DNA of 64,000 bases from Candidatus Thiodiazotropha endolucinida (GTDB lineage Bacteria; Pseudomonadota; Gammaproteobacteria; Chromatiales; Chromatiaceae). Shown in pieces: positions 11,360 through 25,045 of the stretch; positions within the stretch are counted from its first letter, which is position 1; the number at the start of each line of letters is the position of its first letter. Where the stretch lies: assembly GCF_001715975.1 (NCBI RefSeq), contig NZ_MARB01000008.1, positions 124,001 to 188,000 on the forward strand. Reading direction: 5' to 3'. The position numbers and the translations under genes were made by a program. The notes beneath the pieces are model-generated. The model was not told where the DNA came from. It did not search any database and saw only the letters and a list, made by a program, of their open reading frames with translations.

Positions 11360-11429
11360 CTATAGCCAACTCCTATAGCGTTAATCAGATTTAGGTCTTG
11401 GACAAATAGTGATGCGTGGTAAATAGTTT
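11360..11429 (+). promoter_or_regulatory. cbiM promoter with LysR-type T-N11-A operator
   Basis: The operator at 11360-11378 reads CTATAG-CCAACTC-CTATAG. A -35 box TTGGAC at 11398-11403 and a -10 box TAAATA at 11420-11425 are separated by 16 bases, putting the start near 11432. The operator centre is then at about -63, the classical site for a LysR activator. The whole 70-bp block is a near-copy of the scnB promoter at 16244-16313 (58 of 70 bases identical, no gaps). A leader of about 180 bases separates it from cbiM. Confidence 0.75.
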
Positions 11430-11612
11430 CTTTTAATGGTAGCTGTCTGGATATTATGAAAGATAGTATCAAACCATATTGGCCGCATGTGAACTGAAGG
11501 AATGATTGAGCGGCGATAACCTGAATTTTAAAATGCGTATGGCAACGGGTATGGATGTTGCTAATGATTGTTTGACCAGTTGATCCACTAAGCATGAGGA
11601 GAGGGGGTACAG

Positions 11613-12293
11613 ATGCATATTGAACCAGGCGTTGTCGAAGGCGCAAAAATAGCACTTAGCGTTGTAACGGCCGCAGGTGCGATCGGATATGCGGCCAAAC
11701 TTGCGTTAAGCACCGTTAAGCAGGATGGTATCACTACAATTGCTATTCGCAGTGTTATCACGACTCTGCTCGTCTTTTGCTTTTTTGAGGTATTGCCGCA
11801 TTATCCGGTTGGGGTGTCTGAAGTTCACTTCATCCTTGGCGCAACACTGTTTTTGATCTTTGGTGCAGGACCTGCAGCGATAGGGTTGGCAACGGGACTG
11901 CTCATCCAAGGGCTTTTACTGGCGCCGGCTGACTTGCCTCAATACGGTATGAATGTAACCTCTCTACTTGTACCGCTGTTGCTGGTTGATGCGCTGGCGC
12001 GTCGTCTGATCCCGGCAAAGACTGCCTATAAAGATGTCAAGTATGGACAGGCATTGGCCCTCTCAACCGCTTATCAGGGTGGTGTTATCGCTTGGGTGGC
12101 ATTCTGGGCATTCTACGGTAACGGTTTCGGTGCCGAGAACCTGATCCAGGTAGGGTCATTCAGTGTTGCATATTTGACAGTCATTATAATAGAACCGCTG
12201 CTGGACCTTGCGATTCTTGCAACTGCAAAGTCATTGCATCAACTCAAGGACAGCAAGCTATTTCACTCACGTCTCTATCGTGCAGCTGTATAA
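11613..12293 (+). CDS. cbiM: CbiM-type cobalt transporter membrane component
   Basis: A 226-aa polytopic membrane protein of the CbiM/NikM family, the metal-binding S-component of energy-coupling-factor cobalt and nickel importers. The N-terminal Met-His-Ile is the hallmark: His2 and the free amino group bind the metal. The hydrophobic core includes PVGVSEVHFILGATLFLIFGAGPAAIG and LPQYGMNVTSLLVPLLL, characteristic of a CbiM branch that occurs as a single gene without CbiN, Q or O. No ATPase or coupling protein lies nearby. The promoter is a twin of the thiocyanate hydrolase promoter, so I infer that it supplies cobalt for that cobalt enzyme. Confidence 0.85.
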   Translation: MHIEPGVVEGAKIALSVVTAAGAIGYAAKLALSTVKQDGITTIAIRSVITTLLVFCFFEVLPHYPVGVSEVHFILGATLFLIFGAGPAAIGLATGLLIQGLLLAPADLPQYGMNVTSLLVPLLLVDALARRLIPAKTAYKDVKYGQALALSTAYQGGVIAWVAFWAFYGNGFGAENLIQVGSFSVAYLTVIIIEPLLDLAILATAKSLHQLKDSKLFHSRLYRAAV

Positions 12294-12304
12294 TCAGTAG
12301 CATT

Positions 12305-12338
12305 AAGAGGCCTCCTGATTGGAGGCCTCTTCTTATTT
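12305..12338 (+). terminator. Rho-independent terminator of cbiM
   Basis: A perfect 11-bp stem, AAGAGGCCTCC / GGAGGCCTCTT, with loop TGATT (12305-12331), followed by CTTATTT. It lies 12 bases after the cbiM stop and separates cbiM from the methyltransferase gene. Confidence 0.85.
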
Positions 12339-12397
12339 ACATGTTGGGAATCAACCTTGAGTTGTAATGTCAAGTCAGCTGTATCGGGATGAGAAAC

Positions 12398-13222
12398 ATG
12401 ATGGCTGCCCGGGATCCCCACAGGTTTGTCAATGATCTAGGTGACGAGGCGGTCGAACGCCTTATAAGTCGTTTGGAAAGTCGGGCAAAGGATAGTGTTT
12501 TTACAAGTCTCATTGATAAATACTCATCGCTGTTGTTACTTACTGACCCTGCAAAGGTGTTGGAGGTTGGCTGTGGTACGGGGGCAATGATTCGGTCTTT
12601 CGTGCGCAGTAAAAACTTCAATGGTCATGCTTTCGGCGTTGACCAAAGCGGTAGCTTCATTAATGCTGCGAAATCATTTGCCCGCCATGAGCATCTTGAA
12701 AATAGGCTGCAATTTCAGATTGGCGATGCGCATAATCTTGATTTTCCATCCGCAAGCTTCGACACCGTTATTGCCAATACACTGATAAGCCATGTTTCCG
12801 ATCCTGCGCGTGTACTGGAAGAGATGGCGAGAGTGGTATGGCCTGGAGGAACAATCGCTGTTTTTGATGGCGACTATGCATCGCTGACCTATGCATTTCC
12901 TGACCATGATTTCGGCCGGCAAATGGATAGTGCACTGGCAACTGCTTCGTTCAACAACCCCAGGGTCATGCGTGATTTGCCGAGAATGCTGGATACCTAT
13001 GGTCTTCAACTTGTTAGTGCTTGGGGCGATGCAGTTGTTGAGATTGGAGAGGGAAGTTATTTCAAATCTTTTGCTGAAACCTATGCGCCCTATGTAACTA
13101 TTTCAGGGTTGATGGCGGAAAACGATGTCGATAGTTGGTTGTCTACACAGCGTGAAGCCATGAAGTCAGGGACATTCTTTGCATCATGTAACTATTACAC
13201 ATATCTTTTACGCCGCGTATAA
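12398..13222 (+). CDS. Class I SAM-dependent methyltransferase
   Basis: A 274-aa soluble protein with a Rossmann-type methyltransferase core. Motif I is VLEVGCGTGAMI, motif II is AFGVDQSGSFI, the acidic motif III is FQIGDAHNLDFPSASFDTVIANTLISHV, and the post-motif is ARVLEEMARVVWPGGTIAVFDGDY. The methyl acceptor cannot be read from sequence. It follows the cbiM terminator, so it is probably its own transcription unit, although it sits inside the thiocyanate locus. The start is uncertain: ATG 12398 lies 8 bases after GGGA, while ATG 12389 and 12401 are alternatives. Confidence 0.85.
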   Translation: MMAARDPHRFVNDLGDEAVERLISRLESRAKDSVFTSLIDKYSSLLLLTDPAKVLEVGCGTGAMIRSFVRSKNFNGHAFGVDQSGSFINAAKSFARHEHLENRLQFQIGDAHNLDFPSASFDTVIANTLISHVSDPARVLEEMARVVWPGGTIAVFDGDYASLTYAFPDHDFGRQMDSALATASFNNPRVMRDLPRMLDTYGLQLVSAWGDAVVEIGEGSYFKSFAETYAPYVTISGLMAENDVDSWLSTQREAMKSGTFFASCNYYTYLLRRV

Positions 13223-13433
13223 GTTGCCAGAATCACCCGCATTCAGCCGTCAATCATCATAAATCAATGATGTTTCGCTGCCTGACAGTTAATAGGCGGT
13301 GTCATAATCTTTATAGTCTGGTGGTCAGCTGTGAAAGGGATATACAAAACGGTTGAGATGTCAAGCTGTCTTGCGTTAGGCATAAAATGGCTTCCTGCCT
13401 GTAAAAAAAGTATATGTCGATACTGAAAATCCA

Positions 13434-13500
13434 CTATAGAAAAAAACTATAGATTCTATATAAATTAGCTCTTTGACAAATAGAAGTAACAGACAAGAAT
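13434..13500 (+). promoter_or_regulatory. Promoter of the glcF-like gene with T-N11-A operator
   Basis: The operator at 13434-13452 reads CTATAG-AAAAAAA-CTATAG, the same 6-7-6 layout as at cbiM and scnB. A consensus -35 TTGACA (13473-13478) begins 39 bases after the start of the operator, against 38 in the two sister promoters. AAGAAT at 13495-13500, 16 bases further on, is a fair -10. The surrounding bases are otherwise unlike the other two promoters, so only the operator and its geometry are conserved. A GACAATC-AAA-GATTGTC hairpin at 13527-13543 would lie near the 5' end of the leader. The 13223-13701 gap holds nothing else that I can support. Confidence 0.65.
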
Positions 13501-13701
13501 TATAGATACAGGCTATCCGTAAACCTGACAATCAAAGATTGTCGGGGTCCAGCTCTTATAAGTAAATAAGCATGTTTTGTGTTTGTAACCGGAAAGACGC
13601 ACAAGGCAGCATGAAACATACAGAACAATTCAGAGGAGTCTGGAAAATCAATCATATGAAGGTCAACTCTATCTTTTCCGTTTTATGCATTGAACTGTCC
13701 T

Positions 13702-15003
13702 ATGCAAACTAAATTTACAGACCAGCAGTTATCAGTGCCTGCCATAGCCAACTCGGATGTGGAATTGCGGGCCTGCCTGCAGTGCGACTACTGCACACCA
13801 AATTGTCCGACATTCAAATTGCTGGGTGATGAATACGACAGTTCACGTGGACGTGTCTACCTGATAAAGGGGTTGTTGGAGAATGAAGATAAGCCTGACC
13901 AGAAGACCGTCGATTATATTGATCGTTGCCTATCCTGTCTTGCCTGCATGTCCACATGCCCATCAAGCGTCCATTATCAGCATCTTATGGATCATGCAAG
14001 GGAGGTGATCGAACGGAAACATCACCGTAAGCCAGTGGACCGGCTTTCACGCTGGTTATTGGCGAAGATACTACCCTATCCTCAACGCTTTCGTCTGGCG
14101 ATGCGGGCGGCAAGAACGATCAAGCCGGTAGCCTCGGTACTGCCCGGCCCGATTCGTGGCATGGTTGATTACACCCCAGACCGTCTTCCGCCTCCGAGCC
14201 CGAATGATCTGCCGCAAGTGTTTCCGGCTCACGGCCAGCGTAACAGTCGTGTGGCACTATTAACCGGTTGCGCACAGCAGGCTTTGAATACGGACATCAA
14301 TGAGGCGACTATACGCATACTTCGCAGACACGGTTGCGAAGTTGTGATACCGCATGGTTCCGGGTGCTGCGGGGCTTTGACGCACCATATGGGAAAGACG
14401 AATGAGAGTCTTGCGGCAGCGGCAAAAAATATACAGGCATGGATGAAAGAGCTGGAAGGCGACGGGCTGGATGCAATAGTCATTAACACAAGTGGTTGCG
14501 GAACAGTTATCAAGGATTACGGTTTTATGTTTCGAAACGACTCTTTGGGGCAACAGGCGGCAACTATCGCCGGTTTGGCAAAGGATGTGACTGAAGTACT
14601 TTCAGGGATGAAATTAAACTACCTAATAAAACCTGGTCTGCGTATTTCCTATCATGCGACGTGCTCTCTGCAATTTGGTCAAAGAATTAGATTTACACCA
14701 AGAAAGCTATTGAAATCGGCGGGTTTCACTGTACTTGAGCCAAGGGACTCACATACCTGCTGCGGTGCGGCCGGTACCTACAATTTGTTGCAACCTGAGA
14801 TCTCCAGGCAGTTGAAAGAGAGCAAGCTAAAGGAGTTGGAAGCAGGATCCCCTGCAGCGATTGCAGCTGGAAATATCGGCTGTATGATGCACCTGGCATC
14901 AAGCACAGAAACTCCTGTTGTGCATACGGTGGAACTGCTCGACTGGGTGACGGGAGGACCAATGCCCCGATCTTTGAGTGAAGTCTGTAGCAAAGCAGGT
15001 TAA
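13702..15003 (+). CDS. GlcF-like iron-sulfur protein (glycolate oxidase Fe-S subunit family), orphan
   Basis: A 433-aa protein homologous to GlcF, the electron-transferring subunit of glycolate oxidase. It has two [4Fe-4S] motifs, CLQCDYCTPNCP (about residues 27-38) and CLSCLACMSTCP (about 75-86), then two CCG domains with GSGCCGAL and SHTCCGAAGTYN, the heterodisulfide-reductase-like cluster-binding motif. ATG 13702 gives MQTKFTDQQL, matching the E. coli GlcF start; TTG 13690 is less likely. GlcD and GlcE are absent from the neighbourhood. It lies alone in its transcription unit behind an operator shared with cbiM and scnB, so it may serve another flavoprotein dehydrogenase. Its true partner is unknown. 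Confidence 0.85.
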   Translation: MQTKFTDQQLSVPAIANSDVELRACLQCDYCTPNCPTFKLLGDEYDSSRGRVYLIKGLLENEDKPDQKTVDYIDRCLSCLACMSTCPSSVHYQHLMDHAREVIERKHHRKPVDRLSRWLLAKILPYPQRFRLAMRAARTIKPVASVLPGPIRGMVDYTPDRLPPPSPNDLPQVFPAHGQRNSRVALLTGCAQQALNTDINEATIRILRRHGCEVVIPHGSGCCGALTHHMGKTNESLAAAAKNIQAWMKELEGDGLDAIVINTSGCGTVIKDYGFMFRNDSLGQQAATIAGLAKDVTEVLSGMKLNYLIKPGLRISYHATCSLQFGQRIRFTPRKLLKSAGFTVLEPRDSHTCCGAAGTYNLLQPEISRQLKESKLKELEAGSPAAIAAGNIGCMMHLASSTETPVVHTVELLDWVTGGPMPRSLSEVCSKAG

Positions 15004-15065
15004 GTAGCTACTCTGGTTTATCAATCAGGAATTTGTTTCGAGCCTCGGGGATTGGCGATAAGTTC

Positions 15066-15084
15066 GTATAGTGCGTAGCTATGC
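15066..15084. promoter_or_regulatory. Additional ATAG-N7-CTAT box between convergent genes
   Basis: GTATAG-TGCGTAG-CTATGC contains the same core as the four promoter-linked operators. It sits between the ends of the glcF-like gene and the LysR gene, with no gene downstream to control. It could be an accessory binding site or chance. Confidence 0.25.
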
Positions 15085-15092
15085 GATGCTCG

Positions 15093-16076
15093 TTAGTTAT
15101 GGCTGTTAGGGGTGCATACTTCTGACATCGGGCAAGGGCCGGTTCGTTTTACTGGCGTATCGTGGCATCCTTCCACACCCCATTCCGTAGCCAGTCCCTT
15201 GAACGCCAGAGAGGCAGGACTCTTGTACGAATCCTTACGGCTGATAAGCGTGATTGTGTGGTGTGGAAGTTCTGGAATCAGCATAACCGGAAAAATCTCA
15301 TTTTGTTGGCACGCGATCGTGTTGGGGAGTATGGTCGAGAGCCGCCCCAATCGTAGAACCTCGATTATCGTACTTAGCGAGTTGGTCTCAATTGCAATCG
15401 AAGGTTTGATATCGTGTTCCAGGCAATAGAGGTCGATGTGCCTGCGTAGTGCAAAATCGCTGTTGAGTAGTGCCAGCGGTTCCCGTTCAAGGGTGTGTTG
15501 ATCCAGAGGAGTTTCCTGGCCGGCGTATTGGTGGGTCGATCCAACCGCCAGATTGAGTGGTTCTATGAACAGGTGTTGAGTCTCTATGTATTCATAATTG
15601 GCGGCTATGGTAAGTGTATTCGTGAATGCTATGCCAATATCGATATTACCGGCCAGAACGCCGCTCTCAATATCATCTTGCGGCATCTCATAGGTGCCTA
15701 CGGATATACCTGGATAACGTTTGTTGAATCGATCTATCAGTGGCGCAGCCAGATAATCCGTGATCGGTGTCATACCAAGACTCAGGGATCCACGGCTCAG
15801 GTCCTGCAGTTCCTGGATGGCCCGCTTCCCGGCATCCAGTTCACCTAGCGCTCGACGTGCATAACTGATATAGACCTCACCCGCATCGGTAAGGTGAACG
15901 GTACGACCTGTACGATCCAACAGCTGTGTTTCGAGAGACTCCTCCAGCTGCTTGATTTGTTGTGACAGCGTGGGTTGAGAAACAAACAGTGTTTCTGCCG
16001 CACGGGTAAAACTGTGATGTTCGGCAACCGCTAAAAGATAGCGTAGAGAACGAGGACACATGATATTTCTATCCAT
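15093..16076 (-). CDS. LysR-type regulator, CynR-like
   Basis: LysR-family transcriptional regulator. The N-terminal winged helix-turn-helix (LLAVAEHHSFTRAAETLFVSQPTLSQQIKQLEE) and linker (GKRAIQELQDLSRGSLSLG) closely follow E. coli CynR, the cyanate-responsive activator. The C-terminal effector domain has two lobes. It is divergent from scnB and convergent with the glcF-like gene. Start ATG 16076 has an AGGGG 6 bases before it. ATG 16061 (MCPRSLRYLL) is the alternative and aligns with the CynR start. An operator lies across this ribosome-binding site and ATG, which suggests negative autoregulation as known for CynR. The likely inducer is thiocyanate or a related ion such as cyanate; this is inference from context. 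Confidence 0.9.
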   Translation of the reverse strand: MDRNIMCPRSLRYLLAVAEHHSFTRAAETLFVSQPTLSQQIKQLEESLETQLLDRTGRTVHLTDAGEVYISYARRALGELDAGKRAIQELQDLSRGSLSLGMTPITDYLAAPLIDRFNKRYPGISVGTYEMPQDDIESGVLAGNIDIGIAFTNTLTIAANYEYIETQHLFIEPLNLAVGSTHQYAGQETPLDQHTLEREPLALLNSDFALRRHIDLYCLEHDIKPSIAIETNSLSTIIEVLRLGRLSTILPNTIACQQNEIFPVMLIPELPHHTITLISRKDSYKSPASLAFKGLATEWGVEGCHDTPVKRTGPCPMSEVCTPNSHN

Positions 16077-16091
16077 AGCCAACCCCTATGG
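16073..16091. promoter_or_regulatory. Autoregulatory operator over the LysR gene start
   Basis: CCATAG-CCAACCC-CTATGG is a perfect 6-bp inverted repeat with the 7-base spacer and T-N11-A core of the other boxes. It covers both the AGGGG ribosome-binding site (16083-16087, read on the minus strand) and the ATG at 16076, so bound protein would block its own gene. Confidence 0.7.
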
Positions 16092-16243
16092 AAGTTATAG
16101 AAAAAGCGGATTTCGCTAATCACTCCATGATGAGTCCTAGTGTAGACCAATTTTAGATTTGTAGTGAGGATCCACGAATATATCTTTACCTTGCGAAATT
16201 AAATTACTTTTTCCATGTAAATCAATAGGGCAATTCGTGATGA

Positions 16244-16313
16244 CCATAGCCATCGCCTATAGAGCTAATCAGAATTAGGTCTTGGACAATTATTGTGACC
16301 TGGTAAATAGTTT
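16244..16313 (+). promoter_or_regulatory. scnB promoter with LysR-type T-N11-A operator
   Basis: The operator at 16244-16262 reads CCATAG-CCATCGC-CTATAG. The -35 is TTGGAC (16282-16287) and the -10 is TAAATA (16304-16309), with a 16-base spacer and a start near 16316. The operator centre is about 63 bases upstream of that start, as at cbiM. The leader to scnB is about 190 bases. Identical positions shared with the cbiM promoter include the whole operator 3' half, TTAGGTCTTGGACAA and GGTAAATAGTTT. Confidence 0.75.
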
Positions 16314-16506: not shown

Positions 16507-16938
16507 ATGTCATCAGCCATCAGACAAAAAGTGATGAAACATCTGGAGATCGTCAAACAACTCCAGCCGTCTCTACACCAGGAGACTCATGCGCCCTCTC
16601 CTGATCAGGTCGATAACGAACACTATCGGGCCTATACGCGTATGTCGCATGATGTCGGTGGTGAACCGGACGTACCAATCACATGGGAAGAGAAAGAGGA
16701 AGAGGTATGGGAACACAACACCTTCGTTACATGTGAGGTGTTGGCTTGGCGTGGTATTTGGAATGCCGAGGAGAGACGCCGCAGGCAGAATGTGGATGTG
16801 GGACAGACAATGTATCTGGGTTTGCCTTATTACGGCCGGTGGTTGTTGACCGCAGCAAGAATATTGGTCGACAAGCAGTACATTACGCTCACCGAATTGT
16901 CCGACAAGATTGATGAGGTCAAAAAACGCTATGAGTAA
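16507..16938 (+). CDS. scnB: Thiocyanate hydrolase beta subunit
   Basis: Thiocyanate hydrolase converts thiocyanate and water into carbonyl sulfide and ammonia. It is a cobalt enzyme related to nitrile hydratase. ScnB and ScnA together correspond to the nitrile hydratase beta chain. This 143-aa protein matches the ScnB region (YTRMSHDVGGEPDVPITWEEKEEEVWE, then WRGIWNAEERRRRQNVDVGQTMYLGLPYYGRWLLTAARILVDK). AAGGAGG precedes the ATG by about 10 bases. It leads scnB-scnA-scnC, the order known from Thiobacillus thioparus, and overlaps scnA by 8 bases. Confidence 0.92.
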   Translation: MSSAIRQKVMKHLEIVKQLQPSLHQETHAPSPDQVDNEHYRAYTRMSHDVGGEPDVPITWEEKEEEVWEHNTFVTCEVLAWRGIWNAEERRRRQNVDVGQTMYLGLPYYGRWLLTAARILVDKQYITLTELSDKIDEVKKRYE

Positions 16939-17299
16939 ACCACACTACGATCGAGAGCATCACGTCAAGAAGGCCACGGGTATCGGTGATCCCCAATGTT
17001 TTAAAGGCGAAGCCGGCGCGCCAAAGTTCAAGGTTGGCGACAAGGTGAGGATTCGGGACCTGCCCGATATTTTTTATACCCGCACCCAGGTCTATACCCG
17101 CGGCGTGCCTGCAACTGTCGCCCAACTGGTGTATGAAAGTCCCGCCCCGGAGGATGAAGCGTGGGACAACACAGACAAGGTGGTCTGGTTTTACAGTCTG
17201 GTGTTCAAGCAAAAGGATCTGTGGCCGGACTATCCGGATGCATTTGCAAATGACACTGTAGAGACCGAACTGCCTGAACGCTGGCTTGAACCGCTGTAG
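16931..17299 (+). CDS. scnA: Thiocyanate hydrolase alpha subunit
   Basis: A 122-aa subunit beginning MSKPHYDREHHVKKATG. Its main body, FKVGDKVRIRDLPDIFYTRTQVYTRGVPATV, is the SH3-like barrel fold that in nitrile hydratase forms the C-terminal half of the beta chain. The DLPDIFYTRTQ stretch packs near the metal site in that family. The start at 16931 lies within scnB, indicating translational coupling. Confidence 0.92.
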   Translation: MSKPHYDREHHVKKATGIGDPQCFKGEAGAPKFKVGDKVRIRDLPDIFYTRTQVYTRGVPATVAQLVYESPAPEDEAWDNTDKVVWFYSLVFKQKDLWPDYPDAFANDTVETELPERWLEPL

Positions 17300-17360
17300 C
17301 CGTGCCTGCCGATTGAACACAAGACGTTTGTTTGGATAAAGAATCAGAGAGGATAGACAA

Positions 17361-18056
17361 ATGGCGGAGAAACATAAACCTGCACCAATGGTTGATGAGG
17401 TCAGTGAATTTGAGGTGCTCGAAATCGCCGTTCGCGAACTCGCTATCGAAAAAGGCCTTTTCACCGCTGAGGATCATCAGCGTTGGACTGAATATATGCA
17501 TACACTCGGGCCGCTTCCTGCGGCGCGCCTGGTTGCCAAGGCCTGGTTGGATCCGGAATTCAAGAAGCTGGCCGTAGAGGATGGAGTCAAGGCCAGCCTT
17601 GAAGTCGGAATTGACTGGGTCAACAGCATGCCGACCCATTTCGGCACACCCAGTGACTACTGCAATCTGCGTGTACTCGAAGACACGCCAAAGTTAAAAC
17701 ATGTGGTCGTCTGTACGCTCTGTTCATGCTATCCACGTCCCATCCTCGGGCAATCGCCGGAGTGGTACCGGACACCGAACTATCGTCGACGCCTGGTGCG
17801 CTGGCCGCGACAGGTGCTTGCGGAGTTCGGACTTCAAGTGCCCGAAGACGTAGAGGTTCGGGTAGAGGACTCGAATCAGAAATCACGATTCATCGTATTG
17901 CCTGTTCGTCCCGAGGGGACCGAAGGGTGGAGCGAGGACCAGTTGGCAGAGATCGTGACAAGAGACTGCCTGATCGGCGTAGCCGTGCCGAAACCCGGCA
18001 AGACAGCCAACGATCCGCGACCTGTGCGTCCCGCCGTCAACCCATACCACCACTAG
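17361..18056 (+). CDS. scnC: Thiocyanate hydrolase gamma subunit (cobalt-binding)
   Basis: Catalytic 231-aa subunit, homologous to the nitrile hydratase alpha chain. The metal claw VVCTLCSCYP has cysteines 118, 121 and 123. The Thr in CTLCSC marks the cobalt type; the iron type has Ser. In the family, two of these cysteines are oxidised to sulfinic and sulfenic acids for activity. RWPRQVLAEFG further on is also family-typical. Spacing of 61 bases from scnA and GAGAGGATAG before the ATG fit one operon. Confidence 0.95.
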   Translation: MAEKHKPAPMVDEVSEFEVLEIAVRELAIEKGLFTAEDHQRWTEYMHTLGPLPAARLVAKAWLDPEFKKLAVEDGVKASLEVGIDWVNSMPTHFGTPSDYCNLRVLEDTPKLKHVVVCTLCSCYPRPILGQSPEWYRTPNYRRRLVRWPRQVLAEFGLQVPEDVEVRVEDSNQKSRFIVLPVRPEGTEGWSEDQLAEIVTRDCLIGVAVPKPGKTANDPRPVRPAVNPYHH

Positions 18057-18064
18057 GAAGTCCC

Positions 18065-18520
18065 ATGGCAGAGATCAATCCTAAATATTTTGAACTCGAC
18101 AAAGAGATGCGCGACCGCGATCTGGATGAGTCGACGCCGGTTTCACTACTGGAAGATGTAAAAGGCAAGGGACGGGTCTGGGACGATCTGTGTGAGCAGT
18201 ATGGTGTGGATAATCCCGATCCTCCATGGCGGATCACCCTGGAAGCGACCTGCGATATGCTCGCAGGCGGTTATTGGGAAACCTTTAATGTCTGCAAACC
18301 CAAGGAGGAGCGTGATTCTGAAGAGGAGCAGAAGCATCTCGATGCCGTGGAAAGACGTTGGGAAGAGGATCAGCTCGTCAACAAATATTACGACGAAGTT
18401 CCTTTCCCGGAAAGGCAGTTGTTGGCGCTGGCGCATACGCTAATCCGGCGCGGTCTGTTTGATGAGGAGGAGTTGGCGCGTCGCATGGAAGAGATCGATC
18501 GGCGTTTGAACAGCGCTTGA
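18065..18520 (+). CDS. Thiocyanate hydrolase activator / cobalt chaperone, P15K-like
   Basis: A 151-aa acidic protein directly after scnC (8-base gap). Its ITLEATCDMLAGGYWETFN and PFPERQLLALAHTLIRRGLFDEEELARRMEEI segments resemble the N-terminal half of nitrile hydratase beta chains. That half is the fold used by nitrile hydratase activators and by the P15K activator encoded behind scnC in T. thioparus. Such proteins deliver cobalt and promote cysteine oxidation in the gamma subunit. Identification rests on position and this similarity. Confidence 0.8.
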   Translation: MAEINPKYFELDKEMRDRDLDESTPVSLLEDVKGKGRVWDDLCEQYGVDNPDPPWRITLEATCDMLAGGYWETFNVCKPKEERDSEEEQKHLDAVERRWEEDQLVNKYYDEVPFPERQLLALAHTLIRRGLFDEEELARRMEEIDRRLNSA

Positions 18521-18539
18521 TCGTGGAGATGTCAGTATG

Positions 18540-18566
18540 CAATCGAGCGAGTGTTTCGCTCGATTG
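18540..18566 (+). terminator. Hairpin between scn genes and the ABC transporter
   Basis: A perfect 11-bp stem CAATCGAGCGA / TCGCTCGATTG with loop GTGTT, 20 bases after the activator gene. No U-tract follows, so it may act as an mRNA 3' stabiliser or partial attenuator lowering transporter expression relative to the enzyme. A full stop signal is less likely. The rest of the 231-base gap shows no operator of the ATAG-N7-CTAT type. Confidence 0.5.
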
Positions 18567-18751
18567 TACTTCCAGTCGTTTGGCGCACAGGTAAAAAACG
18601 GGTTGACTGGAGATTGCATCCAAACGCAACAGTCATTTAGACCATCGGGGTGGTGAGGAGAGATCGATGCAGATCCGCTTGCTGTTTGGAGAGTGCCTGG
18701 CCCCGCTGCCAATGCAGCAACTTTCGACACTTGACACAGAGGATAGATTGA

Positions 18752-19579
18752 ATGTCTATACGCGGAGTCCGCATTAAGATTGAAGACCTTAGCCATCGCT
18801 ATACTTCAAAAAGTCCAATCACATTCGATAAGGTCAATCTGGAAGCGAAGCATGGTGAGATCATTGTCATTATCGGGCGTTCCGGTTGCGGCAAATCGAC
18901 CTTGTTGCATATTCTTGCAGGGTTGTTGAAACCGACGGATGGCTCTGTTCGTCTTGACGATACCTTGGTGACATCGCCATCGCCGCAATGGGTCATGATG
19001 TTCCAGGCGCCCCATCTTTTTCCCTGGATGAAGGTGTCGCAAAATGTCGGTATCGGGCTGCACTTTGCAGGTTGGGATGAGTCCAGGATGCGTGAAAGGG
19101 TTGACGATGCACTTAGCCTTGTCGATCTTCAGGACTACGCCGATAACAACGTGCAGGACCTGTCGGGTGGTCAGCAGCAACGTGTGGCGCTGGCGCGCTC
19201 ACTAGTTATGGAACCGGAGTTGCTGCTTCTGGATGAACCATTCTCAGCACTCGATGCCTTTACCCGCGCATCTCTGCAACACGATGTTCGATCGATTGCA
19301 AAACGCCTCGGCTTCAATGTTGTGATCGTGACCCACGATATCGACGAGGCGGTCCTGATGGCGGATCGGGCACTGATCATGGCGGGCTCTCCCGGCAAGA
19401 TCTACGACGAGCTCGAAGTCAATCTACCCGATCCACGTGAGCGGCACGACCCGAATGTGCAGGCAATGCGCACACGCCTGATGGAGGCCTTCAAACAAGC
19501 CGCTAATGAGTACCCAAGCGCTTCCGGCAAGGATGCTGGTGACGAATCAAGTCCACACAGCGTCACGCAGCATGCCTGA
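18752..19579 (+). CDS. ABC transporter ATPase, nitrate/sulfonate/taurine type
   Basis: A 275-aa ATP-binding subunit of an importer in the NitT/TauT (SsuB-like) family. It has Walker A GRSGCGKST (about residues 44-52), the Q-loop FQAPHLFPW, the signature LSGGQQQRVALARSL, Walker B LLLLDEP and the switch histidine VTHDIDEA. The ribosome-binding site AGAGGATAG matches the one before scnC. It is first in ATPase, binding protein, permease, permease. Context suggests uptake of thiocyanate or a related small anion. The family alone would equally allow sulfonates, nitrate or cyanate. Confidence 0.93.
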   Translation: MSIRGVRIKIEDLSHRYTSKSPITFDKVNLEAKHGEIIVIIGRSGCGKSTLLHILAGLLKPTDGSVRLDDTLVTSPSPQWVMMFQAPHLFPWMKVSQNVGIGLHFAGWDESRMRERVDDALSLVDLQDYADNNVQDLSGGQQQRVALARSLVMEPELLLLDEPFSALDAFTRASLQHDVRSIAKRLGFNVVIVTHDIDEAVLMADRALIMAGSPGKIYDELEVNLPDPRERHDPNVQAMRTRLMEAFKQAANEYPSASGKDAGDESSPHSVTQHA

Positions 19580-19626
19580 CCCTGCATAAGTCGGAATATC
19601 CGATTACCTAACGGAGGATATCGAAG

Positions 19627-20919
19627 ATGAATGAGCAGAAGCAGCTTATAGATAAGTACGGTGACGGAATCAATGATCCCGATCTCGTCCTGGAATACGA
19701 CCCCCTATTCAAGAACGTGTTAGGTAGTGGTGTTGATAGGCGTGATTTTCTGAAAATGGGCAGTCTTGCGGCGATGAGCAGCCTGATTCCTTCGGCAGCG
19801 ACCTTTGCCCAGGAGAAGAAATGGGATCCTGTGGTCCGTATAGGATATATCCCGATCACCGATGCTGCGGCGCTGCTGGTGGCCCATGAGTTGGGTTTTT
19901 TCAAGAAAGAGGGTATCGAATCCGTTCGCCCAACCCTGATCCGCGGTTGGTCACCCCTGGTGGAGGCGTTTGCCTCGCACCGATTCAATCTCACCCATAT
20001 GTTGATTCCGATACCGATCTGGATGCGTTATAACAACAAGTATCCGTTGAAGATCACTGCCTGGGATCATACCAACGGCTCCGCTATCATCGTGCACAAG
20101 GATAGCGGTATCAATACGCCAAAGGATTTCGGTGGCAAGCAGTTTGCCGTGCCCTATTGGTACTCGATTCATAATATCGTTTCGCAAAAGATCATGAAGG
20201 AGGCCGGTATCAAACCAGTGATACGGCCGCAAACCGCGAAACTGGCCCCTGATGAGTGTAATTTCCTGGTGCTCAATCCGCCTGAGATGCCGCCGGCCCT
20301 TGCGGCCAAGTCGATTGACGGTTACTGCGTGGCCGAACCCTTCAATGCCCTGGGCGAGATCAAGGCGGGCGGAAAGGTGCTGCGTTTCACAGGTGATGTC
20401 TGGAAAGGGCATCCATGCTGTGTCGTGGTCATGCATGAGGCCGATGCGATGGATCCTGATCGTGCGGCATGGGCTCAGGGTGTGCACAACGCCATCATCG
20501 CCGCACAGATACATCTCGGAGAAAACAGAGAGGAGATGGCGCATCTGCTCTCCCGTAATGGCAAGAAATACCTGCCGTTCCCGAAGAAGGTCATCGAGCG
20601 GGCCATGCTGTTCTACGATCCTGCCTACTACAGCAACCCGGTAGCGATCAAACACCCGGAGTGGGGTATGGACCGAATCAATTTTCAGAGTTGGCCCTAC
20701 CGTTCCGCCACTGAACTCGTTGTTTCGGATCTGAAGAGTACTGTACTCACCGGCGACGCCAGTTTCCTTGACGGACTCTCACCGGAGCATGTGGCTGATG
20801 ATCTGGTCAACTACAAATATGTGAAGAATGCCCTTGAAGCCAATCCTAAATGGAAGAATGACCCGAGCGTGCCCAAAACGGGCGACCCCTATTCCAGAGT
20901 AGAGGTGGTTAAACTGTGA
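19627..20919 (+). CDS. Tat-exported ABC substrate-binding protein (NitT/TauT family)
   Basis: A 430-aa periplasmic binding protein. The export signal is unusual: about 37 hydrophilic residues precede the twin-arginine motif DRRDFLKMGSLAAMSSLIPSAATFA (Arg38-Arg39), as in NrtA- and CynA-like proteins. The mature part starts VRIGYIPITDAAALLVAHELGFFKKEGI, the standard opening of nitrate/sulfonate binding proteins, and includes CVAEPFNALGEIKAGG. GGAGGATATC precedes the ATG, and the stop overlaps the first permease start by 4 bases. Tat export means it folds in the cytoplasm before secretion. The ligand is not determinable from sequence. Thiocyanate is the favoured guess from context. Confidence 0.9.
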   Translation: MNEQKQLIDKYGDGINDPDLVLEYDPLFKNVLGSGVDRRDFLKMGSLAAMSSLIPSAATFAQEKKWDPVVRIGYIPITDAAALLVAHELGFFKKEGIESVRPTLIRGWSPLVEAFASHRFNLTHMLIPIPIWMRYNNKYPLKITAWDHTNGSAIIVHKDSGINTPKDFGGKQFAVPYWYSIHNIVSQKIMKEAGIKPVIRPQTAKLAPDECNFLVLNPPEMPPALAAKSIDGYCVAEPFNALGEIKAGGKVLRFTGDVWKGHPCCVVVMHEADAMDPDRAAWAQGVHNAIIAAQIHLGENREEMAHLLSRNGKKYLPFPKKVIERAMLFYDPAYYSNPVAIKHPEWGMDRINFQSWPYRSATELVVSDLKSTVLTGDASFLDGLSPEHVADDLVNYKYVKNALEANPKWKNDPSVPKTGDPYSRVEVVKL

Positions 20920-21746
20920 GTGAAGATGCCGCATCTTTCAAGGTGGGCGAATCCAAGCCGTACCGTGTCCTGAAATCATCAGGACGCGGTTTATACAACT
21001 TCTTCGGGGGGTTGGCGATCCTGTTCGTCTTTTGGTGGATTGGAGGTTATTTCATATCCATCAATCCATCCACTGAACACTTCGCGGCTTTCGGGCCGAT
21101 TCCCACATTTAAGGCATTTCCCGAGCTATGGTCCTCCGGCACGATTCAGAGTGCAATAGCCGCAAGTGGCTATCGTTTGGGTTTGGGTCTGCTGATTGCG
21201 ATAGTAATCGGTGTGCCGATCGGTATTCTGATGGGTCGAAGCAAGCGCTTCCGCGAAATAAGCAATTCACCGTTTCAGCTATTGCGCATGATCAGTCCAT
21301 TGGCTTGGATGCCGCTTGCGGTCATTGTTTTCGCAACTTGGAATCAATCGATCATTTTTCTGATTGCAATTGCATCGGTCTGGCCAGTGGCCTTTGCCAC
21401 GGCCGCGGGTCTGGCGAAAATCGATCCGGCCTGGTTCAAAGTGGCGCGAAATCTGGGCGCTAAGCCCATACACATGATGACCAAAATTATATTGCCGGCC
21501 ATCAGCTTCGATGTATTTACAGGTATCCGGCTGGCGTTGGGTGTGGCGTGGATTGTGTTGGTGCCGGCGGAATATCTGGGGGTCACATCCGGTCTCGGCT
21601 ACTCAATAGAAGACGCCAGGGAAACATTGTCATACCACCACCTTACAGCCATCGTGCTGGTGATCGGTGCACTCGGTTACATCCTCGACAGTACCTGTGT
21701 GTTACTGATCAAACATTTCAGCTGGCACCGTGGAGATGAATCGTGA
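20916..21746 (+). CDS. ABC transporter permease 1 (SsuC/NrtB type)
   Basis: A 276-aa inner-membrane permease of the BPD_transp_1 family with about six hydrophobic segments. The ATPase-contact EAA-like loop is AGLAKIDPAWFKVARNLGAKPIHMMTKIILPAI. It starts with GTG overlapping the binding-protein stop. It is strongly similar along its whole length to the next gene, including the shared block GRSKRFRE-SNSPFQLLRMISPL. Confidence 0.92.
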   Translation: MSEDAASFKVGESKPYRVLKSSGRGLYNFFGGLAILFVFWWIGGYFISINPSTEHFAAFGPIPTFKAFPELWSSGTIQSAIAASGYRLGLGLLIAIVIGVPIGILMGRSKRFREISNSPFQLLRMISPLAWMPLAVIVFATWNQSIIFLIAIASVWPVAFATAAGLAKIDPAWFKVARNLGAKPIHMMTKIILPAISFDVFTGIRLALGVAWIVLVPAEYLGVTSGLGYSIEDARETLSYHHLTAIVLVIGALGYILDSTCVLLIKHFSWHRGDES

Positions 21747-21804
21747 GCCATCAGAGCGAGGAGAGGAAAAAAGTGTGTTCACCTGTTGGAAAGGTTGTTA
21801 AGCA

Positions 21805-22653
21805 ATGAGTAATGATACCGCGCCTGCCGGGTTGAACATCCTCAACAGCATGATGGGTGCAAACGCATCTCAGCGCCTATTGAAATCATCCTGGCGGGGA
21901 TTGATGAATTTCTTTGGCGGGCTTGCGATCCTGTTTGTGATCTGGTGGTTTGGCATCTATCTGATATCTTCAAATACCTCGACCGAACATTTTGGTGACT
22001 TTGGGCCAATACCAGCAATTCAGGCGATCCCAGTGTTATGGGAAGAGGGCACGATACAGAGTGCGATTACATCCAGTGGCTACCGTTTGGGTAGTGGACT
22101 GTTAATTGCCATATGCATTGGAGTGCCAATCGGTATTTTGATGGGACGCAGTAAGCGGTTTCGTGAATTGAGCAACTCACCCTTTCAGTTGTTGCGTATG
22201 ATCAGTCCCCTCTCTTGGGAACCTATCGCGGTTATTGTTTTCGTGACATGGAATCAGGCGATCATATTCCTGATAGCCATTGCGTCGGTTTGGCCTATCG
22301 CGTTTGCAACCGCAGCCGGTCTGGCCAAGGTCGATCCTGCCTGGTTTAAGGTGGCGCGAAACCTTGGCGCCAAACCCTGGCATATCGTGACACGGATTAT
22401 CATACCGGCGATCACATTCGATGTGCTTACAGGTGTGCGTCTTGCGCTCGGTGTGGCATGGATCGTTCTCGTTCCTGCAGAATTCCTTGGTGTTACTTCC
22501 GGTCTTGGCTACTCGATTCAAGATGCGCGTGAGGGTCTTTCGTACGACCATCTTATGGCATGGGTGCTTATCATAGGTGCTATCGGCTACATCCTCGATA
22601 GCTCCTGTGTGATGCTAATCAAGCGCTTCAGTTGGCATCGTGGAGATCAGTGA
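21805..22653 (+). CDS. ABC transporter permease 2, tandem paralogue
   Basis: A 282-aa permease nearly colinear with the preceding one, so the pair comes from a tandem duplication. The EAA-like loop is AGLAKVDPAWFKVARNLGAKPWHIVTRIIIPAI. The N-terminal 20 residues (NDTAPAGLNILNSMMGANAS) are the least similar part. The two could form a heterodimeric membrane channel. Confidence 0.92.
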   Translation: MSNDTAPAGLNILNSMMGANASQRLLKSSWRGLMNFFGGLAILFVIWWFGIYLISSNTSTEHFGDFGPIPAIQAIPVLWEEGTIQSAITSSGYRLGSGLLIAICIGVPIGILMGRSKRFRELSNSPFQLLRMISPLSWEPIAVIVFVTWNQAIIFLIAIASVWPIAFATAAGLAKVDPAWFKVARNLGAKPWHIVTRIIIPAITFDVLTGVRLALGVAWIVLVPAEFLGVTSGLGYSIQDAREGLSYDHLMAWVLIIGAIGYILDSSCVMLIKRFSWHRGDQ

Positions 22654-22740
22654 CATCTCGTAGTTACGACGCGATAACAGCAACCTGAAAGGCTTGGTAT
22701 CAAGCATATGTTGTGTGCTGGCGGATGCGAGGTAAATGTG

Positions 22741-23010
22741 ATGAGCAGATCGAGATTCAGTGAAGAAAAGATCTTGGCTGTATTGAAGGAAGCGGAGGAG
22801 TCGGATGAGAAGATCACTGAAATATGCAGCAAGCATGGGATCTCCGATGCCACATTTTACAAATGGCGCTCAAAATACGGAGGCCAGTCAGCCAATGACT
22901 CAAGGCGTTTGAAGCAACTCGAGGAGGAGAATAAGCGGCTTCGAGCGCTTGTTGCCGATCTCGCTTTACGTAATCAGGCATTAAAGCGCGTGGTATCGAA
23001 GAAGTGGTGA
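22741..23010 (+). CDS. IS3-family transposase OrfA, orphan remnant
   Basis: An 89-aa protein with a helix-turn-helix (RFSEEKILAVLKEAEES, ITEICSKHGISDATFYKWRSKYGG) and leucine-zipper tail (LKQLEEENKRLRALVADLALRNQALKRVV), the complete OrfA of IS3-group elements. OrfB, the DDE catalytic part, is missing: only about 115 bases separate it from the dsrE-like gene. No terminal inverted repeats were found. It cannot transpose alone. A start at 22708 would add 11 residues unlike OrfA. Confidence 0.8.
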   Translation: MSRSRFSEEKILAVLKEAEESDEKITEICSKHGISDATFYKWRSKYGGQSANDSRRLKQLEEENKRLRALVADLALRNQALKRVVSKKW

Positions 23011-23126: not shown

Positions 23127-23519
23127 ATGTCACAGAATTATCACATCGTTTGCTTGACTGGAACACGCGAAAAATTGCAGATGGCTGCAATGTTCGCATC
23201 GGTGGCAGCCGCCACGGGTGATCGGGTTACTGTATTTTTTTCTATGAATGCATTGCCTTTCTTCATCAAGAATTCTGTACAGCAGCCACCGGTGGAGAGC
23301 CGGTTTGGCGAAATGATTGAAAGCGAAGTGGGTGTGCCGCCGTTCAAACAATTGTTTAAAAGTGCGGCGGAATTGGGAGATGCAAAACTTTTGCCCTGTT
23401 CCATGGCGCTTGATCTGTTGAAGATTACCAAAGAGGCTCTTGATCCCGAGTTTGGACCGCCGACAGGGCTCACCCGCTTTCTTAACGATGCTGAAGGCGG
23501 GCAGCTGCTGACATTTTGA
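23127..23519 (+). CDS. DsrE-family sulfur-carrier protein
   Basis: A 130-aa cytoplasmic protein of the DsrE/DsrF/TusD-like fold. Its N-terminus VCLTGTREKLQMAAMFASVAAATGDRVTVFFSMNAL and the single conserved cysteine in LLPCSMALDLL match the DsrE2 or peroxiredoxin-like branch, which carries persulfide sulfur in sulfur-oxidising bacteria. GAGAGAGGCG precedes the ATG. It is paired with tusA 42 bases downstream, an association well known from sulfur oxidisers. Confidence 0.85.
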   Translation: MSQNYHIVCLTGTREKLQMAAMFASVAAATGDRVTVFFSMNALPFFIKNSVQQPPVESRFGEMIESEVGVPPFKQLFKSAAELGDAKLLPCSMALDLLKITKEALDPEFGPPTGLTRFLNDAEGGQLLTF

Positions 23520-23561
23520 ATCGATAGCGGCTCAAACTATCTCAGCAAGAGGATATTGTGA

Positions 23562-23792
23562 ATGAGTGAATTTAAAACCATCGATGCTCGAAACACGTTT
23601 TGCCCCGGGCCGCTAATGGAGCTTATTACCTATATGAAGCAGGCGGCAGTTGGCGATACCCTCGAGCTGTTATCGACCGATAACGGAACGGCATCCGATG
23701 TTCCCGAGTGGATCGACAAGGTTGGACACGAAATGATCAGTAGTGAGAAGGTCGGGGAGGTCTGGCACATGAAGGTTCGCAAGCTCAAATAG
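23562..23792 (+). CDS. TusA-family sulfurtransferase
   Basis: A 76-aa protein with the TusA signature TIDARNTFCPGPLMELI. Cys in the CPGP motif is the persulfide-carrying residue. Family members relay sulfane sulfur between rhodanese, DsrE-type proteins and oxidising enzymes, or to tRNA thiolation. Placement between a DsrE-like protein and an SQR-like flavoprotein points to the oxidation relay. Confidence 0.92.
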   Translation: MSEFKTIDARNTFCPGPLMELITYMKQAAVGDTLELLSTDNGTASDVPEWIDKVGHEMISSEKVGEVWHMKVRKLK

Positions 23793-23911
23793 CGGTAGGT
23801 GAAGAGGAGTGGATTGATTGCTTGTTAATCAATGGCTCAGCTGGTTTAACAAAAGAGATTTATCTGGCCCAGGGTCAGAGATCTCCTGTAATAGTGGATT
23901 AGGAGAGTGCA

Positions 23912-25045
23912 ATGAGAATCTTAGTCGTCGGTGGTGGCTGCGGTGGTACCATATTGGCCAACAACCTTGCGCGGCGGCTGGCCAGCGAGATCCGCAATCG
24001 TAAGGTCAGACTCACACTGCTTTCGGCCTCGGATAAACACATGTATCAGCCGGGTCTGTTGTATGTGGCGTTTGGACAGATGATGCCTGACGAACTGTAT
24101 CGTGATCAGGAGAGTCTGCTTGAGCCCTCGATTGAGTTTTATGTGGATCCGGTCGAGGCGTTCCATCTTGATCAGAACAAGGTTACAACAAAAAGCGGTA
24201 AGACACATGAGTATGACGTGATGGTCATCGCAACCGGTTCACGTATCGTGCCTGAAGAAGTGCCTGGCCTGGTCGAGGGTTCTGAAACCTTCTATTCCGA
24301 GGAAGCCGCCGTGAAGATGTTCAAACGTCTCCGTGAGTTTGAGGGCGGTAAGGTTGCGATTGTCGTCGGTGTCCCGCACAAATGTCCGATCGCCCCGGTG
24401 GAGGTGACTTTCTCCCTTCACGACTATTTCAAGATGCGCGGTATTCGCGACAAGGTGCACATCAAGTACCACTATCCAATCGGTCGGATCCACACCATAG
24501 AAAATGTTGCCAAATGGGCAAAGCCGGAGTTCGATCGCATTGGCGTTGAATATGAAACCCTGTTCAACGTCAAGGAAGTGGATGTGGAGAATCAGGTGGT
24601 AAAGAGCGAAGAGGGTACCGAGACCGCATATGATCTGCTTATCTCCATTCCGCCACACAGGGGAATGCCGGTGATCGAACGGGATAAGATGGGCGATGGC
24701 GGCTGGATACCCACTGATCGGTACAAACTCACCATGGAGGGATATGACAATGTCTATGTATTGGGGGATACCACCAACCTGCCGGTGAGCAAGACCGGTT
24801 CCGCGGCGCATTTCGAAGCCGAGGTAGTGGCCGAGAACATCGCTTCGATTATCAAGATCGGTACACCCGTACGTGATTATGACGGTAAGGTCTACTGTTT
24901 TATCGAGGCAGGTCATGATCGGGCGACCTACGCCATGTTCAACTATGAGAATCCACCCGACCTGAAGGCGCCCAATAAATCGATGCACTGGTTTAAAATG
25001 AGCTATAACAAAATGTATTGGACCAGCGTCCGCGGTCTACTTTGA
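23912..25045 (+). CDS. FAD-dependent oxidoreductase, sulfide:quinone reductase-like
   Basis: A 377-aa flavoprotein. The FAD-binding motif VVGGGCGGTILANNLARR is at the N-terminus, ATGSRIVPEEVPG lies near residue 110, and a second binding region with VLGDTTNLPVSKTGSAAHFEAEVVAENI is near 285. The overall pattern, including YQPGLLYVAFG, is that of SQR and flavocytochrome c sulfide dehydrogenase relatives. A cysteine in HKCPIAPVE occupies roughly the position of an SQR active-site cysteine; the rest of the canonical pair is not obvious. I infer a role in oxidising sulfide or persulfide and passing electrons to quinone. GGAGAG precedes the ATG. Confidence 0.85.
   Translation: MRILVVGGGCGGTILANNLARRLASEIRNRKVRLTLLSASDKHMYQPGLLYVAFGQMMPDELYRDQESLLEPSIEFYVDPVEAFHLDQNKVTTKSGKTHEYDVMVIATGSRIVPEEVPGLVEGSETFYSEEAAVKMFKRLREFEGGKVAIVVGVPHKCPIAPVEVTFSLHDYFKMRGIRDKVHIKYHYPIGRIHTIENVAKWAKPEFDRIGVEYETLFNVKEVDVENQVVKSEEGTETAYDLLISIPPHRGMPVIERDKMGDGGWIPTDRYKLTMEGYDNVYVLGDTTNLPVSKTGSAAHFEAEVVAENIASIIKIGTPVRDYDGKVYCFIEAGHDRATYAMFNYENPPDLKAPNKSMHWFKMSYNKMYWTSVRGLL

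Follow-up and report, generated by a model that had tools for sequence, protein, structure and literature searches.

The closest described counterparts of the locus analyzed here are regulons of the LysR-type regulators CynR and OxyR and the gene clusters of thiocyanate hydrolase (scn). CynR responds to cyanate and recognizes the motif ATAA-n7-TTAT, and the sites of OxyR, IlvY, and CynR agree in a position near -65 (PMC5002191). The scn clusters of Thiobacillus thioparus and Thioalkalivibrio thiocyanodenitrificans were described by Berben et al. 2017 (PMC5328954), and moderate transcription of thiocyanate hydrolase and of cyanase has been reported for a Candidatus Thiodiazotropha symbiont (PMC11171427); all three articles are cited from the parts available. 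The window examined here is a stretch of 64,000 nucleotides from Candidatus Thiodiazotropha endolucinida, in which four 19-bp boxes with the core ATAG-N7-CTAT are found at the genes for a cobalt uptake protein (cbiM), a GlcF-like iron-sulfur protein (glcF), thiocyanate hydrolase, and a CynR-family LysR-type regulator (lysR). Judging from their conservation, these boxes are very probably the operators through which the LysR protein encoded at 15093-16076 activates cbiM, the GlcF-like gene, and scn. The open-access literature searched yielded neither a regulator nor an operator described for the scn genes of Proteobacteria. LysR regulons as such are well known.

Putative composite operator–promoter elements in the window

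The four boxes had been proposed in a sequence-only reading of the window, and all of them are present at the positions given there. The sites and the promoter parts that follow them are listed below, with scores from a matrix built on scnB sites outside the genus.

11360-11378, plus strand: putative cbiM operator (LysR type, recognition half), CTATAGCCAACTCCTATAG; conserved in the genus; score 51.3
11384-11427, plus strand: second part of the cbiM operator, ATCAGATTTAGGTCT, with -35 TGGACA (11399-11404), 17 bp, and -10 AATAGT (11422-11427), from cross-species columns
13434-13452, plus strand: putative operator of the glcF promoter, CTATAGAAAAAAACTATAG; score 25.6
13458-13501, plus strand: second part of the glcF operator, with -35 TTGACA (13473-13478) and a weak -10 (AGAATT at 13496 or AAGAAT at 13495)
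16073-16091, minus strand: putative autoregulatory box across the Shine-Dalgarno sequence and start codon of lysR
16244-16262, plus strand: putative operator of the scnB promoter, CCATAGCCATCGCCTATAG; score 54.2
16268-16311, plus strand: second part of the scnB operator, ATCAGAATTAGGTCT, with -35 TGGACA (16283-16288), 17 bp, and -10 AATAGT (16306-16311), from cross-species columns

The same reading had counted five exact cores in about 5 kb, one of them promoterless, and had argued from the rarity of the 8-base core. The clustering stands, with six cores within 11362-16260 instead of five, and two of them (13502 and 15068) rather than one lack a composite promoter. The window holds seven exact cores against 0.44 expected from shuffles, and a random 5-kb stretch would be expected to hold about 0.06 at the genome rate, whereas this stretch has six. 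However, the whole genome (4.49 Mb) contains 55 cores compared with 76 for the reversed pattern, that is, no enrichment. The argument from rarity therefore fails, the core was rejected as evidence in itself, and the case has to be made from the longer element and from comparison with other genomes. Three cores (1416, 13502, and 15068) were rejected as members of the system, as the matrix gives them no score. A 15-mer of the scnB box (ATAGCCATCGCCTAT) is repeated exactly elsewhere in the window's own genome (contig C6, 219157-219171) without a composite promoter, probably by chance.

The composite element consists of CTATAG-N7-CTATAG, 5 bp, and then ATCAGAATTWGGTCT leading into the -35. When 45 sites from outside the genus were aligned on the box, a few of which look like chance boxes lacking the second block, a second block appeared at a fixed distance from the box and a third at the -10. 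In element coordinates, the box occupies positions 1-19, ATCGGAATTAAGTCT positions 25-39, TGGA begins at 40, and cATAgT covers 63-68. Across species, this last column reads [A/C]ATAGT, with T68 as the best conserved -10 position (1.1 bits). The corresponding window blocks are ATCAGAATTAGGTCT, TGGACA, and AATAGT. The 16-base spacer proposed earlier would place the -10 after TTGGAC at TAAATA and is replaced by the conserved column AATAGT, 17 bp from TGGACA. Likewise, the box centre does lie near the LysR activator position, but at about -65 rather than -63, with the predicted start around element position 75. The predicted target promoters thus carry a T-N11-A recognition box near -65 together with conserved -35 and -10 columns, the arrangement of promoters controlled by LysR-type regulators; the glcF site has a poorer fit (AGAATT) at the conserved -10 position. 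The half-sites start at element positions 3, 14, 25, and 36, in steps of 11 bp, and from this we infer that they are four LysR half-sites.

Among the matches listed, the matrix from non-genus scnB sites scores four window places only (51.3, 25.6, 18.3, and 54.2), the next best reaching -8.2 and shuffled window sequence (1.9 Mb) at most 4.8. Counts of non-genus scnB sites from this matrix are not independent, since those sites trained it.

Conservation of the element and its association with scn and lysR

Thiocyanate hydrolase (scnC) is present in 11 of 22 genomes of the genus. The same 11 carry a LysR orthologue of at least 77% identity, whereas in the other 11 the top match is far weaker. The operator with its second part and -35, searched with up to three mismatches, occurs in all of these 11 genomes but in no other (reversed control, 0 of 22). 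The -35/-10 half with zero or one mismatch is likewise restricted to them, several others having one or two matches with three mismatches. With the exception of two on other contigs, the composite sites of the genus are located at the scn locus. One of these precedes the gene of an alginate-export-like outer-membrane porin (PorA; genome G011), and the other lies 230 bp from a contig end (genome G001), where PorA stands at the end of the scn contig and the two presumably join. The full element is therefore not spread over the genome but, within the genus, confined to scn-bearing genomes, and comparison of these genomes indicates that it tracks the presence of the CynR-like LysR.

Beyond the genus, named genomes were scanned with two aligned gamma subunits, which yielded 80 loci: 8 from the genus (L077-L083 and L140), 61 from other Proteobacteria, and 11 from Actinobacteria, of which L143 and L144 overlap (L numbers denote fetched loci, G numbers genomes searched, and G000 the window's own genome). 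A LysR match is present in 56 of the 61 non-genus proteobacterial loci, being absent from L087, L098, L103, L126, and L154 and weak in L112 and L131, and in 0 of the 11 actinobacterial loci. A box matching at least 10 of 12 positions lies within 350 bp upstream of scnB in 42 of 59 non-genus proteobacterial loci (L087 and L098 were skipped), whereas dinucleotide shuffles gave 0.71 on average and at most 4, and five other palindromes 0-2; in Actinobacteria it was found in 0 of 10 tested (L143 was skipped).

A second matrix was built from the genus only, covering 44 positions and trained on 27 hand-listed sites (21 distinct), with the best score in 2.1 Mb of shuffled sequence as threshold and loci whose gene start was not covered left out of the counts. 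In the other proteobacterial loci, it detects the element before scnB in 52 of 57 cases, before cbiM in all 18, before PorA in all 3, before GlcF in 4 of 12, and before the methyltransferase in 1 of 30. It detects none before ScnC (0/61), the ATPase (0/52), the binding protein (0/49), DsrE (0/44), or SQR (0/44), nor before scnB in the actinobacterial loci (0/9). In total, it gives 123 hits versus 0 for the reversed matrix. The element is thus kept in orthologous loci of genomes assigned to the Gamma-, Beta-, and Alphaproteobacteria, and this cross-genome comparison strongly backs the boxes as real sites.

Eight named genomes searched whole with a looser pattern have one to five sites each, mostly at scn. 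Elements with two or three mismatches away from scn were seen in two Thiobacillus genomes (L197, L198, and L199, at G330 C1:424022, G330 C18:81787, and G337 C14:70015); by eye they adjoin TonB-receptor-like and small helix-turn-helix genes, and are perhaps sites of a related regulator. Thiocapsa roseopersicina has a two-mismatch element on a contig other than that of scn (L194, G336 C17:10411), which resembles the element before the GlcF-like gene of L120.

The proposal that the fourth box covers the lysR ribosome-binding site and ATG is borne out by a common register across loci. Of the 61 non-genus loci, 53 could be used (LysR was missing or truncated in the 8 skipped), and in 50 the best box falls in one register relative to the LysR start, with at least 9 of 12 matching positions in 46 and at least 10 of 12 in 32. 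Because a start codon and Shine-Dalgarno sequence explain part of the match, other ATG starts of the same loci were anchored alike as a control, and 0 of 204 reached 9 of 12. The composite promoter usually follows the lysR-start box, reading away from lysR, so that one site appears to serve both autoregulation and a divergent gene, often cbiM or scnB. In L037 (11502), L038 (11074), and L041 (290), a decayed copy of the promoter module comes after the lysR-start box, at 175 bp from the element of scnB, suggesting a promoter duplication.

Identity of the regulator and alternative explanations

The window LysR has the domains of its class (HTH_1, 87.2 bits; LysR_substrate, 114.6 bits) and scores 368.4 bits on the NCBIfam CynR model, against a cut-off of 277 and 507.7 for Escherichia coli CynR, which is also its best solved relative (2hxr and 3hfu, 43% identity). 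At least five proteins among 274 sampled genomes of the class (G000 included) pass the CynR cut-off, and all are tied to scn loci: for four of them scn falls within the 4 kb fetched, and the fifth (L161) shares 3.9 kb of identical sequence with L121, a Thiohalophilus locus that has scn. This number is a lower bound because the search brought up no CynR above the cut-off in the E. coli genome used as control, which means either that this strain lacks the cyn operon or that the genome search can miss CynR (the K-12 protein scores 508 bits). A tree of 67 rows places 59 of the 60 scn-linked LysR proteins together on one branch (100/99), and L135 further out. E. coli CynR, the single CynR included, is the nearest outside row, its branch and that of L135 being long. 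This tree kept 6 of 24 outgroup rows, a first one with long outgroup rows having misplaced several. We read the system as a CynR-family regulon for thiocyanate use, putatively autoregulated at its own start codon.

The CynR assignment raises another explanation, namely, that the regulator is a classical CynR answering only to cyanate, with thiocyanate hydrolase as a passenger of a cyanate regulon. Cyanase indeed stands behind the element in L153, L124, and L095 (at 67, 111, and 177 bp) and as the second gene in L137 (at 964 bp; all by Pfam). Moreover, within the genus, 10 of the 11 genomes with scn have cyanase and none of the 11 without scn does, in a search that gave none in the control E. 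coli genome, either because that strain lacks the cyn operon or because the search can miss cyanase. However, the one scn genome without cyanase is that of the window, which keeps LysR and boxes while showing no cyanase match in either the genome or the window. In four of the other ten, cyanase lies on the scn contig near cbiM (G001, G003, G007, and G011; in G003 as a short partial match only), whereas in the other six it lies elsewhere, and no composite element was found there. The constant partner is scn, at which all CynR-scoring proteins sampled are located; in addition, the box is not that of cyn, and in the tree the scn-linked proteins are separate from E. coli CynR. We therefore regard a purely cyanate-responsive regulon as unlikely.

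It is also conceivable that the boxes are OxyR sites and that the genes belong to a peroxide response. The OxyR motif, 5'-ATAG-n7-CTAT-3', has sites at -66, -44, and -35 (PMC5002191, in the part available), its core is present in the boxes, and an OxyR-like protein occurs in 22 of 22 genus genomes (best matches of 225-269 bits, below the 329-bit cut-off). However, the element is found in 11 of these 22, and the 11 scn-less genomes have the OxyR-like gene without a composite element, so that OxyR does not explain the distribution and was rejected as the regulator on that ground. The element instead tracks the scn LysR, including the one register over the LysR start codon, and its second half is ATCR...GTCT rather than another ATAG-CTAT, which leaves OxyR very improbable. 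Least probable of all is that the likeness of the promoters stems only from recent duplication of one promoter and common descent, with no selection on binding: those of cbiM and scnB are alike over about 70 bp and the decayed modules described above exist, but outside the genus half-sites, spacing, and -10 are retained despite divergence of the N7 spacer and flanks, and unrelated genes (HupE/UreJ, cyanase, and porin) have the element 67-356 bp upstream.

The presence of the sites, the degree to which they are conserved, and the link to scn and lysR lead us to infer binding, the direction of control, and the effector as follows. A LysR tetramer would occupy four half-sites, ATAG and CTAT as the recognition part centred around -65, followed by ATCA and GTCT abutting the -35. 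With effector bound, it would recruit polymerase to promoters with a weak -10 and activate those of cbiM, the GlcF-like gene, and the scn operon. The conserved element and its association with scn and LysR thus support the earlier proposal that these genes are under one regulator. Since the fourth box covers the ribosome-binding site and start of lysR, the protein would repress its own start region and thereby limit its own synthesis. Thiocyanate hydrolase is a cobalt enzyme, and cobalt uptake would therefore be co-induced. The effector is most likely thiocyanate, or cyanate that can accompany thiocyanate. Thiocyanate is a natural candidate because it is a related small linear anion and CynR answers to cyanate; E. 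coli CynR has reportedly been crystallized with azide. The window genome keeps the system without a cyanase, which speaks for thiocyanate, whereas the other 10 scn genomes have cyanase, which leaves room for cyanate. We lean toward thiocyanate itself.

Several observations weigh against the reading of the boxes as LysR operators of this regulon. The box is ATAG-n7-CTAT and not the cyn operator ATAA-n7-TTAT. The second half of the element is a poor palindrome, and the tetramer model therefore rests on spacing. Five of the 57 scnB loci fall below the genus-matrix threshold, and T. thioparus has two three-mismatch copies of the element away from scn. Upstream of lysR in its own direction the genus matrix finds 0 of 54, as would be expected with a promoter half that faces the divergent gene. 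In the window, the lysR box has only a degenerate promoter copy downstream (score 18.3), the scnB element lying 171 bp further on. In genome G011, LysR is in two pieces on two contigs (L011 / L040 and L041), the larger with two internal stops, which represents either a broken gene or an assembly fault. The link to GlcF is affected most. Among the genus loci scanned (L040 left out) and the matches listed, no element precedes glcF in L034, L035, and L039, and the 4 GlcF genes that pass the genus matrix are only a third of the 12 loci meeting the start filter. The non-genus matrix has hits before GlcF-like genes in at least 19 loci, but the proteins encoded there mostly share only 33-39% identity with that of the window. 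The comparison indicates that the link between box and GlcF is real in the window, varies within the genus, and is the least steady part of the regulon.

Genes of the locus and comparison with known systems

The genes of the locus are as follows.

11613-12293, plus strand: CbiM-like cobalt uptake membrane protein (Pfam CbiM, 63.6 bits, cut-off 23.1)
12389-13222, plus strand: class I methyltransferase, 3' of cbiM (Pfam Methyltransf_11)
13690-15003, plus strand: GlcF-like 4Fe-4S / CCG-domain protein (NCBIfam GlcF, 407 bits, cut-off 333)
15093-16076, minus strand: CynR-family LysR-type regulator (HTH_1, LysR_substrate, NCBIfam CynR), with its ATG (16076-16074) inside its own box
16507-18056, plus strand: scnB, scnA, and scnC, the three subunits of cobalt thiocyanate hydrolase (NHase beta N and C, NHase alpha, TIGR03887)
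18158-22653, plus strand: rest of the presumed scn operon, with a small conserved protein, a NitT/TauT-type ABC ATPase, a binding protein, and two permeases (the second named by eye)
23127-25045, plus strand: DsrE-like protein and SQR-like flavoprotein, 3' of scn (DsrE, Pyr_redox_2); homologues in many other scn loci

ScnC scores 393.1 bits on TIGR03887 (cut-off 291.45) and has beta and alpha partner genes, identifying the enzyme as thiocyanate hydrolase; the window gamma subunit matches that of PDB 2dd4 with an E value of 2e-129 and shares 80% identity with the T. thioparus chain. Most other proteobacterial loci also have the small protein, the ATPase, and the binding protein after scn, and about half of the other scn loci have a homologue of the methyltransferase, mostly 49-67% identical. 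The two permease genes (20916-21746 and 21805-22653) are similar and in tandem, and a short open reading frame at 22708-23010, transposase OrfA-like by eye, lies between the second of them and the DsrE-like gene.

Further genes stand behind the element in other loci. An extra element precedes PorA in L031, L032, L036, L037, and L039, the protein scoring 23.5 bits on its Pfam model, just below the cut-off of 25.2. No PorA was found in the window genome, but this search had no known positive, so its empty outcome shows nothing. In L031, L032, L037, and L038, an OprD-type porin (PorB) comes between the glcF-type element and glcF. Alignment to L031 shows that the window genome lacks about 1.4 kb (7009-8404 of L031, the OprD-type porin), the junction being near 13685; window glcF therefore directly follows the promoter, as in L033 and L036. 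Because the porin is gone in the window genome and interrupted by stops in L031, it seems to be decaying in this lineage, with the promoter kept for glcF. A PorB-like protein of 60% identity is encoded elsewhere in the window genome (C1:208170). In T. thioparus (L109, 2349-4556, minus strand), the GlcF-like frame is 735 aa long and ends in a Phenol_MetA_deg domain of outer-membrane type, which may reflect either a fusion or an error in the sequence; 27 other GlcF-like frames compared have 248-490 aa.

By Pfam, HupE/UreJ stands behind the element in L121 (306 bp) and L115 (268 bp), formate/nitrite-type channels in L105 (170 bp) and L108 (571 bp), and DUF4198 in L114 (202 bp). HupE/UreJ proteins are able to carry cobalt or nickel. 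Here HupE/UreJ occupies the place of CbiM, which fits the supply of cobalt to a cobalt enzyme.

A broader proposal, whose chances we consider even, would make the LysR a dedicated pseudohalide sensor that evolved from CynR for thiocyanate, and the regulon a thiocyanate module found throughout Proteobacteria. This module would comprise dedicated outer-membrane entry porins, interchangeable cobalt importers (CbiM and HupE/UreJ), the hydrolase, an optional cyanase as safety valve, and the GlcF-like iron-sulfur protein in a carbonyl sulfide pathway, with the start-codon operator as a special device of autorepression. If true, the regulon offers a sequence handle for finding partner genes of thiocyanate hydrolase in clam symbionts and wastewater bacteria, it names candidates for the outer-membrane entry route, the cobalt importers, and the iron-sulfur protein, and it provides a candidate thiocyanate-responsive promoter.

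Compared with known systems, the locus shares with actinobacterial clusters (Streptomyces, Rhodococcus, Nocardia, and Mycobacterium) homologous ScnB, ScnA, and ScnC, but not the LysR match and the box, for which those loci gave the negative counts reported above. It has the same core as the OxyR regulon, with half-sites about one helical turn apart (PMC5002191, in the part available), whereas the regulator and gene content differ. Like the clusters of T. thioparus and Thioalkalivibrio thiocyanodenitrificans, it combines scnABC, a NitT/TauT transporter, and DsrE/TusA/SQR genes with a methylase and a cobalt transporter upstream; those clusters also have an upstream cyanase, whereas the window has an intervening GlcF-like gene and no cyanase, and in the available part of the article no regulator or operator for the cluster was found (PMC5328954). 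A further likeness is to E. coli CynR/cynTSX, which likewise has a CynR-family LysR, autoregulated as the one here would be, with sites near -66 (PMC5002191, in the part available) and 43% identity between the regulators. However, thiocyanate hydrolase is combined here with cobalt uptake, a porin, and an iron-sulfur protein, and an ATAG-n7-CTAT box lies over the start codon of the regulator.

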